NCBI GenBank assembly: GCA_003389385.1
Contig: QQVM01000016.1
Location: 124,001-188,000 of the forward strand
DNA: 64,000 nt
Direction: 5' to 3'
From: Bacteroidota bacterium
GTDB lineage: Bacteria; Bacteroidota; Bacteroidia; AKYH767-A; 2013-40CM-41-45
This document shows, one piece after another, positions 24,514 to 27,055 of this stretch. A program made the translations under genes and the position numbers. Position 1 is the stretch's first letter; every line of letters starts with the position of its first letter. Below the pieces are notes generated by a model. That model was not told the DNA's origin. It saw nothing but the letters and a program-made list of their open reading frames with translations, and did not search any database.

Positions 24514-24598
24514 GGAGAGGTGGCAGAGTGGTCGATCGCGGCGGTCTTGAAAACCGTTGACTGTTAAAGGTCCGGGGGTTCGAATCCCTCCCTCTCCG
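24514..24598 (+). tRNA. tRNA-Ser (TGA anticodon)
   Basis: An 85-base class II tRNA. Acceptor GGAGAGG pairs with CCTCTCC (24591-24597), with discriminator G at 24598. The anticodon arm GCGGT-CTTGAAA-ACCGT gives anticodon TGA (codon UCA), followed by a long variable arm and T-loop TTCGAAT. No CCA is encoded. Its last 16 bases are the template of the repeat copies downstream. A -7-like TAATTTCG lies about 6 bases upstream. Confidence 0.95.
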
Positions 24599-24754
24599 CA
24601 AGGATAAAACGCATTGCCCCGCAAGGGGCAATTTTTGTTTCAGGAGGGTGATGAGCTTGCTCATCTAATCGGATGAAATAAAAATTGATCAGGCGCGAAG
24701 TGCCGGCAATGCATTTTGGAATTGCAGGAACCACCTTAATGGATCACCGCGGGT
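24583..24754 (+). repeat. tRNA-Ser-tail repeat, unit A (172 bp)
   Basis: First unit of the array. It starts with the true tRNA 3' end (AATCCCTCCCTCTCCGCA) and continues with AGGATAAAACGC and a terminator hairpin, ATTGCCCC-GCAA-GGGGCAAT plus TTTT (24613-24636). Hairpins GATGAGC-TT-GCTCATC (24650-24665) and GGCGC-GAA-GTGCC (24692-24704) follow. GCAAT/ATTGC arms surround 24706-24725, and the unit ends GGATCACCGCGGGT. There is no open frame of note. Confidence 0.9.
24613..24640 (+). terminator. Terminator of tRNA-Ser, within repeat unit A
   Basis: Perfect 8-bp stem with a GCAA tetraloop and a T-run, 15 bases after the tRNA. The same terminator is repeated in units B and D, and a different one fills the same place in unit C. 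Confidence 0.85.
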
Positions 24755-24926
24755 AATCCCTCCCTCTCCGCAAGGATAAAACGCATTGCCCCGCAAGGGG
24801 CAATTTTAGTTTCAGGAGCGTGATGAGCTTGCTCATCTAAGCGGATGAGATAAAAATTGATCAGGCGCGAAGCGCCGGCAATGCATTTTGGAATTGCAGG
24901 AACCACCTTAATGGATCACCGCAGGT
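24755..24926 (+). repeat. tRNA-Ser-tail repeat, unit B (172 bp)
   Basis: Tandem copy of unit A at exactly 172 bp, nearly identical. It restarts with AATCCCTCCCTCTCCGCA and keeps the terminator hairpin with its GCAA loop. Its third hairpin reads GGCGC-GAA-GCGCC, where unit A has the wobble form GTGCC, so the stem is kept despite the base change. Confidence 0.9.
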
Positions 24927-25091
24927 AATCCCTCCCTCCCCGCAGATGAATCAAATGAAGGCCCGCGCTAGCGGGCTTTTTATTTTTCCGGAAAGATCAC
25001 AAGTTTGCTTGAATGATCTTGAAGGGAAAATAAAAAAGACGAAGTCTTTCATTTGATTTTGACAATAGGAGACACAGGGATCACCGCAGGT
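24927..25091 (+). repeat. tRNA-Ser-tail repeat, divergent unit C (165 bp)
   Basis: Begins with the same tRNA tail (one change, CTCTCC to CTCCCC) and ends with the shared GGATCACCGCAGGT junction, but its middle is a different sequence. The order of structures is the same: terminator GCCCGC-GCTA-GCGGGC with a T-run (24961-24980), an imperfect stem AAGATCA/TGATCTT (24993-25020), and AAGAC-GAA-GTCTT (25036-25048). Confidence 0.8.
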
Positions 25092-25219
25092 AATCCCTCC
25101 CTCTCCGCAAGGATAAAACGCATTGCCCCGCAAGGGGCAATTTTGTTTCAGGAGCGTGATGAGCTTGCTCATCTAAGCGGATGAAATAAAAATTGATCAG
25201 GCGCGAAGCGCCGGCAATG
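25092..25219 (+). repeat. tRNA-Ser-tail repeat, unit D, truncated at its 3' side
   Basis: Matches unit B from the tRNA tail to GGCAATG. It stops there, about 43 bp short of a full unit, where the AT-rich kinase islet begins. Confidence 0.85.
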
Positions 25220-25314
25220 ACCGAATCAAATAAATTGGGTAAATATATACCAGATTAAATATTTTCTTATAATTTTATATTGAGATGTTTAACTATTAAT
25301 TGAAGTAAGAAACA
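25220..25314. other. Left boundary of the AT-rich islet
   Basis: AT-rich sequence between truncated repeat unit D and the kinase ATG. I see no inverted terminal repeats or recombinase gene. A short CCGAATC string at 25221-25227 recurs at 26890-26896 near the right boundary, but 7 bases could be chance. Confidence 0.4.
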
Positions 25315-26391
25315 ATGGTTAATCCTAACACAAATATCTTTCTTTTAGAAAATGCTCTTGACAATTTATTGGAAGGTTTTCAGATAATCAGTCCAGAATG
25401 GAAATATCTCTACGTAAATAAATCCGTTATTAAACAAAGTAAATGTAATTCAAAGGAAGATTTGATAGGCTTTACAATGATGGAAAAATTCCCGGGAATT
25501 GAAAATACGAAATTGTTTAAAGTACTTTCTAGATGCATGTTGAAAGGAAATTCAAAATATTTTGAAAATAAGTTTGATTTTCCAGATGGCACTCAAGGGT
25601 GGTTTGAATTAAGAATTGAACCAATTCCTCAAGGTTTGTTTATCCTATCAATTGATATAACAGAACGGAAGCAGGCGGAAAAAGAAATTGAGATAAAATC
25701 TGCCGATTTATTGAAAGCAAATGCTGAACTAGATCGATTTGTGTATAGTGTTGCACATGATTTGCGTTCTCCTCTAACTTCAATATTAGGACTTTTATCA
25801 TTTATAGAACAAGATGATAATGAATTTGAGAAAATTAAACATTTAAATCTGATAAAAAGTAGAATAGAAAAAATGGATGAGTTTATAAAAAACGTACTTA
25901 GCTATTCAAAAAACAATCGAATAGAAGTAAAAGTCCAGAATATTTCTATAAGAAAAGAAATTGATGATAAATTAAATATATACAAGAATTTATTAGAGAG
26001 TAATATGATTGATATTCAACTAGAAATTGATCAATCAGTTCCATTCTATTGCGATCATACTAGATTTTCAATGATTATTGAAAATTTAATTTCAAATGCG
26101 ATTAAATATCATGACCCTAAAAAATCTAATAGGTATATTAAGATCAAAGGTAATGCTGATATCAATGTTGTAAATTTAATTTTTGAAGATAATGGAATTG
26201 GTATACCATACAAGCATCAAGATAAAATATTCAAGATGTTTTATCGGGTATCAAATCAGATCCCTGGATCTGGACTCGGATTATTCATTGTAAAGGAAAC
26301 TCTAGAAAAATTAGGTGGGAAAATCTGGGTAGATTCAATTCCAAAAATTAAAACATCCTTTAATTGCGAAATAAGAAATTATTTATCATGA
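25315..26391 (+). CDS. PAS-domain sensor histidine kinase
   Basis: Cytoplasmic-looking histidine kinase of 358 residues with no transmembrane segment. A PAS domain covers about 10-120 (LLEGFQIISPEWKYLYVN...). The HisKA domain has the phosphorylated His148 in SVAHDLRSPLTSILG, and the ATPase domain has ISNAIKYHDP (N box), DNGIGIP and GSGLGLFIVKETLEKLGG. The kinase senses a soluble signal and phosphorylates the overlapping response regulator (ATGA overlap, 26388). Its base composition stands out: two 60-base lines I counted hold 15 and 11 G+C, against about half in neighbouring housekeeping genes. Together with the flanking repeats this suggests horizontal acquisition. Confidence 0.9.
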   Translation: MVNPNTNIFLLENALDNLLEGFQIISPEWKYLYVNKSVIKQSKCNSKEDLIGFTMMEKFPGIENTKLFKVLSRCMLKGNSKYFENKFDFPDGTQGWFELRIEPIPQGLFILSIDITERKQAEKEIEIKSADLLKANAELDRFVYSVAHDLRSPLTSILGLLSFIEQDDNEFEKIKHLNLIKSRIEKMDEFIKNVLSYSKNNRIEVKVQNISIRKEIDDKLNIYKNLLESNMIDIQLEIDQSVPFYCDHTRFSMIIENLISNAIKYHDPKKSNRYIKIKGNADINVVNLIFEDNGIGIPYKHQDKIFKMFYRVSNQIPGSGLGLFIVKETLEKLGGKIWVDSIPKIKTSFNCEIRNYLS

Positions 26392-26801
26392 TTAAATTAT
26401 TAACATATGTAATAGAGAGGGTGATGATAGTAGACGATGATCCAACTGACTTATACATACTTAATAGAATATTAAAAAAGAACAATTTTGCAAAAATAAT
26501 TACGCAATTTTCATCTCCAGAAAAGGCTTTACAGCACCTTTTATCTAATCATAAAAAAAACTTTTTTTTTCCACAGATGATTTTTTTAGACATAAATATG
26601 CCTTTGATGAATGGCTTTGAATTTCTTAATGAATTTAATAAAATTCCTGAAAACATAATAAGAAATACTAAAGTAATTATTTTGTCTTCCACATGTGACC
26701 CAAGGGATTTTGATAAAATGAAGGCTTACCCTAATTCTTTAATGTTTTTTGAAAAACCACTTAAATCAGAAGATTTAGATTTAATTTCAACTATTTTATA
26801 A
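26388..26801 (+). CDS. Single-domain response regulator (Rcp1/CheY-like)
   Basis: 137-residue receiver domain without an output domain. The ATG at 26388 overlaps the kinase stop as ATGA, a sign of translational coupling, and is preferred over the longer frame from 26364. Acidic pocket residues lie in MIVDDDPTD, the phosphorylated residue is Asp68 in FLDINMPLMNG, and the conserved Ser/Thr (ILSST) and Lys (FFEKPL) follow. The long loop before Asp68 and the DDDPTD start resemble the Rcp1 class, which pairs with PAS/phytochrome-type kinases. Output is probably through protein contact. It shares the low GC of the kinase gene. Confidence 0.9.
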   Translation: MIKLLTYVIERVMIVDDDPTDLYILNRILKKNNFAKIITQFSSPEKALQHLLSNHKKNFFFPQMIFLDINMPLMNGFEFLNEFNKIPENIIRNTKVIILSSTCDPRDFDKMKAYPNSLMFFEKPLKSEDLDLISTIL

Positions 26802-26825
26802 AAATATTTTTCTTTAAAAGATTAT

Positions 26826-26853
26826 AAAAGCCCTCATTTGAGGGCTTTTCATT
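26826..26853 (+). terminator. Terminator of the kinase/regulator islet
   Basis: AAAAGCCCTC (26826-26835) and GAGGGCTTTT (26840-26849) form a perfect 10-bp stem with an ATTT loop, directly after the response-regulator gene. Confidence 0.85.
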
Positions 26854-26920
26854 TCAGATAAAGATTTCATCAGTACTTAAAAATCGGTGCCGAATCTATG
26901 GACATGTAAAAGTTACTTCT

Positions 26921-27055
26921 GCAAGGGGCAATATTTGTTTCAGGAGCGTGATGAGCTTGCTCATCTAAGCGGATGAGATAAAAATTGATCAGGCGCGAAG
27001 CGCCGACAATGCATTTTGGAATTGCAGGGACCAGCGTAGTATCAATGTCACCGCG
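26921..27055 (+). repeat. tRNA-Ser-tail repeat, unit E, truncated at its 5' side
   Basis: Resumes the repeat at about unit position 39 (GCAAGGGGCAAT, the right arm of the terminator), so it lacks the tRNA tail and left arm. It then runs through both small hairpins to GGAATTGCAGGGACCA and a weakened TCAATGTCACCGCGC end. It marks the right edge of the kinase islet. The rest of the 26,802-27,076 gap is featureless. Confidence 0.85.

Follow-up and report, generated by a model that had tools for sequence, protein, structure and literature searches.

Islands that enter tRNA genes by means of a tyrosine integrase restore the tRNA gene and leave a copy of its 3' end at the distal side, with one att core per integrase. 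Short palindromic, non-autonomous repeats such as those of the REP/RAYT systems and MITEs depend on a nuclease or transposase that is encoded at another site; the enzymes are of the HUH or DDE type, and the repeats neither have caps made of tRNA halves nor keep to tRNA ends. SLX1 is a structure-specific nuclease with a housekeeping role, and to our knowledge no linkage to tRNA genes has been described for it or for the UPF0213 proteins. The 178-bp repeats of E. coli tyrT, associated with rtT RNA, form a tandem array behind a tRNA gene, and approximately 19 bp of the tRNA 3' end is included in each unit. We know of only a single such locus; an interrupted T-arm cap, related repeats at other tRNA genes or a nuclease partner are not known to us.

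A further system is found in phages. Phage T6 SegB, a GIY-YIG homing endonuclease, cleaves within tRNA genes, and the complement (GTTCSAWTY) of its enriched motif (RAWTSGAAC) corresponds to the T-loop (PMC13096335). SegB breaks followed by recombination lead to tandem amplification and arrays, and across phages SegB is associated with tRNAs of many isotypes (PMC13096335).

The locus described here lies in a 64,000-nucleotide stretch of DNA from a Bacteroidota bacterium (the window). It resembles the tyrT repeats in that tandem units follow a tRNA gene and carry its 3' end. We consider the array to be probably a nuclease-less satellite run of GIY-YIG homing cassettes that target tRNA genes, that is, of selfish elements colonising these genes.

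Array and fold at the tRNA-Ser gene

Four repeat units are present beside the tRNA-Ser(TGA) gene (Table 1). TRF reported a single array (24583-25219, period 172, 3.8 copies), in agreement with the original prediction of a tandem array of approximately 172-bp units, which can now be refined in that the third unit is divergent, the fourth is truncated and a fifth copy lies beyond a histidine kinase and response regulator pair. The tail AATCCCTCCCTCTCCGCA was confirmed at 24583, in the tRNA itself, and at the start of each tail copy in Table 1, while 0.04 occurrences would be expected in a shuffled window; its source is the tRNA-Ser(TGA) sequence from the T-loop to the 3' end. As was also predicted, the array is not CRISPR: spacers are absent and the weak matches to CRISPR repeats fall under threshold. 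No plasmid copies of the window array were found. The GC content of the segment with the kinase and regulator genes is 27%, compared to 42-46% in its surroundings, and this pair may be cargo captured between the truncated cassettes 4 and 5.

Table 1. Features of the tRNA-Ser(TGA) array and its neighbours (positions in the window)
Feature	Position	Strand	Remarks
tRNA-Ser(TGA), intact	24514-24599	+	ARAGORN; Rfam RF00005
Cassette 1	24601-24772	+	R1 116.9 bits
Cassette 1 structured core	24602-24722	+	
Cassette 1 terminator hairpin	24613-24632	+	inside core
Cassette 1 T-arm-like hairpin	24741-24760	+	
Cassette 1 tRNA tail copy	24755-24772	+	
Cassette 2	24773-24944	+	97% identical to cassette 1; R1 110.1 bits
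Cassette 2 tail copy	24927-24944	+	one mismatch
Cassette 3	24945-25109	+	core sequence different, fold same; R1 63.2 bits
Cassette 3 tail copy	25092-25109	+	
Cassette 4	25110-25219	+	ends at about 25219, without T-arm hairpin and tail; R1 91.5 bits
Low-GC segment between cassettes 4 and 5	25220-26920	+	GC 27%
PAS histidine kinase	25315-26391	+	Pfam
Response regulator	26364-26801	+	Pfam
Cassette 5	26921-27033	+	both ends truncated; 96% identical to cassette 2; R1 65.5 bits

Every complete unit has the same fold, consisting of a long outer stem, a terminator hairpin, a long arm and a small hairpin, and the core is followed by a T-arm-like hairpin that runs on into a copied 3' end of the host tRNA. 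In unit 1, the outer stem is formed by AAAACGCATTGCC paired with GGCAATGCATTTT. The long arm terminates in the small hairpin GAGCTTGCTC, a further small hairpin (GGCGCGAAGTGCC) precedes the closing strand, and after this strand comes the hairpin GGATCACCGCGGGTAATCC, whose 3' arm continues into the tRNA tail copy. What was reported earlier as two or three small hairpins after each terminator is a set of branches of one large palindromic fold with an outer stem that encloses the terminator. The consensus from ten units at eight loci contains 38 pairs, 23 of them with compensatory changes. Rfam searches identified tRNA as the only known RNA family in the array; the sX4 model scored under threshold, over the tRNA part, and the rtT model had no match in the window array.

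Such a fold could belong to a vertically inherited tRNA trailer RNA, a functional RNA made from tRNA read-through transcripts and acting in terminator control or as a decoy or sponge, as proposed for tRNA spacers; the arrays would then be duplications kept for dosage. We regard this as unlikely, although the fold begins at the tRNA 3' end, includes the tRNA terminator and is strongly paired with many two-sided changes. An excess of G.U over A.C pairs (102 to 35), as expected of an RNA, was obtained in the model-fitted alignment, which is subject to alignment bias, whereas in an unbiased count of the stems, 97% of whose pairs are Watson-Crick, the difference (G.U 17, A.C 9) is not significant and does not tell an RNA role from a DNA role.

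Caps and distribution of the ORF-less cassettes

The tail copy starts inside the T-loop (at about position 58), and the hairpin that precedes it pairs with the tail. The capping tail agrees with whichever tRNA adjoins the cassette, the T-arm hairpin and tail having been checked for Ser, Pro, Arg and Cys. Specifically, the hairpin pairs with the T-stem of the adjoining tRNA: GGGAT/ATCCC for Ser, TGGAT/ATCCA for Pro and GAGAT/ATCTC for another Ser. The T-loop motif GTTCRAWTC is present in 22/22 host tRNAs and in 0/30 tail copies. The distal tail forms the end of a tRNA-arm copy that has been interrupted, a feature that lay beyond the sight of the original prediction. A cap that changes with its neighbour argues against a trailer RNA.

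A covariance model of the cassette fold (R1) had matches in 24 of the 42 genomes of the order. By our own count, approximately 57 of 66 fetched loci begin at a tRNA 3' end (Ser, Pro, Arg, Cys, Met, Lys or Val) or lie in the array of that tRNA, and several of the others are at contig ends. Across the phylum, R1 matched 17/296 genomes, mostly at the ends of tRNA genes (Ser, Leu, Phe, Val, Lys, Cys, Arg, Pro and Asp), and among 61 relatives searched at the DNA level, the element was found adjoining tRNA-Ser genes of other genera. Within the window's genome there are also a second array, at tRNA-Ser(GGA) (L009), a similar folded element at tRNA-Cys and, at tRNA-Arg, 79-bp ORF-less units with a related hairpin. 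The family thus spans many tRNA types and genomes. The cores at Ser-TGA and Ser-GGA in this genome are 83-84% identical, compared to a mean of 65-67% for typical between-genome pairs, which suggests spread between tRNA genes.

The MFS gene next to the tRNA-Ser of the window is conserved across the family and so allows this site to be located in relatives. The orthologous tRNA-Ser is followed by the R1 array in the window's genome and by a GIY-YIG cassette with a hairpin and tail copy in G004, while no cassette was found at this gene in G001 (of the same genus), G006 or G003. This is the presence/absence at one site among relatives that is expected of a homing element, and a distribution so patchy, with absence within a genus, counts against vertical inheritance of a trailer RNA. 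Mobility of the cassettes is strongly suggested. Copies beside other tRNA genes, which the original prediction had named as its own check, are present, and copy number varies; together with the empty orthologous sites, they give good support to its proposal of non-autonomous cassettes that use the tRNA 3' end. As short, palindromic and probably non-autonomous elements, the ORF-less cassettes are like REP/RAYT repeats and MITEs, from which they differ in being capped with tRNA halves at tRNA ends.

GIY-YIG nuclease cassettes at tRNA genes

A Pfam search of the genomes identified GIY-YIG ORFs with an interrupted tRNA 3' half after tRNA-Ser, Pro, Asp, Met and Val. The order in a full cassette is: intact tRNA, terminator, short GIY-YIG ORF and hairpin-interrupted 3' half-copy of the same tRNA. 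One such nuclease gene is found at tRNA-Val in Flavobacterium dankookense (L209). The ORFs belong to the GIY-YIG superfamily (PF01541 at 4.9e-18 and 5.9e-18), and their alignment has invariant Tyr, Gly, Arg, His and Glu columns. In the Asp, Met and Val cassettes, the hairpin is located closer to the anticodon arm, with an intact T-loop motif, indicating that target sites differ by lineage. A mirror type, with a 5' half interrupted in the D-arm, is found upstream of tRNA-Ser in three genomes.

Both kinds of cassette occur together. At tRNA-Val of G038, a GIY-YIG ORF fills the slot between terminator and cap and an R1 unit is next in the array, and cassettes with and without an ORF share arrays or tRNA genes at L127, L149, L190, L192, L194, L201, L216 and L246. 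Two GIY-YIG cassettes stand in tandem at tRNA-Val in the window's genome; in G001, a nuclease cassette is present at tRNA-Met but no ORF-less core was detected. The units in the window have the insertion slot and the cap type of the nuclease cassettes and no ORF, as would be expected of satellites. There is no sequence relation between the ORF-less cores and the nuclease ORF, and a comparison of tail copies and T-arm hairpins found that the hairpin sequences of the two kinds differ; a satellite link is accordingly proposed from the common slot, the style of cap and the co-occurrence. With a nuclease gene taking the place of the core in the same slot, a trailer RNA becomes harder to defend. As the cassettes stand at many tRNA ends, often beside a small nuclease gene, they resemble passengers of a selfish element, as yet little known, which settles in tRNA genes and leaves them unbroken. 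The slot, the caps and the association with nuclease genes are, like the cassette family itself, solid observations.

A copied tRNA 3' end is also a hallmark of integrated islands, and tandem accretion is known for these, so that a tyrosine or other integrase might move the cassettes, with the tail as att core and the units accumulating in tandem. This seems very unlikely to us for three reasons. First, the tails within one cassette family match many different tRNA species, more than a single att core would account for. Second, the tRNA copy is interrupted by hairpins and, in the mirror type, is of the 5' half, whereas islands leave a copy of the 3' end. Third, the cassettes contain no integrase, whereas their slot holds GIY-YIG genes. 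An integrase-driven island was rejected for the window array as well, where no integrase was recognised among the ORFs listed around it and the slots hold GIY-YIG genes or no ORF; the earlier remark that no recombinase is present holds to the extent that no integrase was recognised in or near the units. As for its suggestion of footprints of serial integration, the partner of the cassettes is probably a GIY-YIG nuclease and not an integrase.

GTDB genomes were scanned with four nuclease sequences as seeds and without tRNA information (the seeds themselves came from cassettes), which yielded 79 nuclease loci; as the scan employed a narrower nuclease alignment, the named set of loci is biased to one subfamily. 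A co-oriented tRNA gene was located within 250 bp at 53 of the 63 loci having at least 250 bp on both sides, and an opposed one at 0/63, where we estimate a chance expectation of roughly 1% (approximately 45 tRNA genes per 3.4 Mb). A significant copy of half of the adjoining tRNA was found in 48 of 62 assessable loci, although at the sensitivity used it was often not found at tRNA-His. Clear splits of the half-copy are often at GG^TTCGAATC (G^TTCGA) or after nucleotide 10 and are filled by two 7-bp hairpins. At L246-L268, from candidate phyla and Acidobacteriota, where tRNA-Asn, Gln and Ala dominate, the half-copies have one hairpin (for example, TCCGCCAGCTGGCGG) and not two. The nuclease tree, built from few columns and with many unresolved forks, tracks tRNA isotype: it requires 20 changes, compared to a shuffled mean of 39, and 0/200 shuffles were as low. 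Its Gln clade spans Bacteroidota, Ignavibacteriota and two candidate phyla (support 99/96). The genes are therefore linked to their target locus, as homing genes are, both in position and in descent.

The closest solved relatives of the cassette nucleases are single-domain GIY-YIG proteins of the UPF0213 and SLX1 type (PDB 1zg2, 1ywl and 6seh). This relationship, the richness of the cassettes in perfect hairpins and the two adjacent 7-bp hairpins at the junction would be in keeping with an SLX1-like, structure-specific nuclease acting on hairpins or cruciforms, with transposition of a folded single strand as in REP/RAYT. We think this improbable: the nuclease lineages follow tRNA isotype, which suggests recognition of the sequence of the tRNA gene, and the junction is at fixed tRNA positions.

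Homing as an explanation

The preferred explanation, homing by the GIY-YIG nuclease, has a close precedent in phage T6 SegB. The cassette nucleases resemble the free-standing SegB of phages T4 and T6, encoded near tRNA genes, in their GIY-YIG fold and their linkage to tRNA genes of many isotypes; SegB differs in being a phage enzyme found near multi-tRNA regions, and the available part of its description does not mention half-tRNA caps with hairpins or ORF-less satellites (PMC13096335). Because the half-copies of many cassettes split exactly the T-loop sequence of the SegB motif, we infer homing, repair, protection by hairpins and satellites. The nuclease would cut a tRNA gene that has no cassette, either in the T-arm (near GG^TTCGAATC) or in the D-arm, and a cassette-bearing copy would serve as the template for repair, homology being provided by the tRNA body together with the copied half. 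Repair would insert the cassette and leave the tRNA intact with its own terminator, and the hairpins in the distal half-copy would split the nuclease site and block re-cutting there. Tandem arrays would grow by repair of breaks between repeated tails, and the ORF-less structured cores may be mobilised or amplified in trans. The presumed target motif is retained in the intact host tRNA, which counts against the cutting model, as does the intact T-loop motif of the Asp, Met and Val cassettes; the lack of a detected ORF-less core in G001 counts against the satellite link.

The chances are about even that these cassettes make up a phylum-wide, previously undescribed class of selfish elements of the chromosome. 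On this view, each GIY-YIG homing cassette would be specialised for one tRNA isotype and enter its gene by way of the D-arm, the anticodon arm or the T-arm; hairpins that split the copied tRNA half would protect it, and folded satellites without an ORF would parasitise it and build tandem arrays such as the present one. Novelty is judged here against general knowledge and the open literature, in which no account of tRNA-linked GIY-YIG genes in bacterial chromosomes or of such repeats was found (weak evidence); a tblastn search with one query found no match to the cassette nuclease in phages. Homing endonucleases directed at tRNA genes are known in phages; here they appear to be common in bacteria as well, in the chromosomes of Bacteroidota and, with a sparser occurrence, of Ignavibacteriota, Acidobacteriota and candidate phyla. 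By supplying a replacement end and a terminator, such an element could inhabit the most conserved genes of the cell harmlessly. The cassettes would be a natural source of nucleases that are each specific to one tRNA isotype, would give an example in bacteria of satellites that depend on a homing endonuclease, and would explain tandem repeats flanking tRNA genes and assembly breaks at these genes.

Contigs end inside tandem cassettes at tRNA-Val and tRNA-Arg, so the arrays may be a common cause of such breaks. Contig ends within cassettes were seen in G000 at the end of C12 (L157) and at the starts of C17 (L012) and C16 (L015). Two other kinds of sequence were noted after tRNA genes. In G009 (L271), a different tandem repeat (GTCCGCCGAAGCGC...GCGGAC) follows both tRNA-Ser TGA and CGA and is possibly another ORF-less cassette type. 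At L021, L025, L036 and L172, the terminators after tRNA-Met, Asn and Glu have a GAGTGAACAG / CTGTTCACTC motif in common, perhaps a further repeat family.
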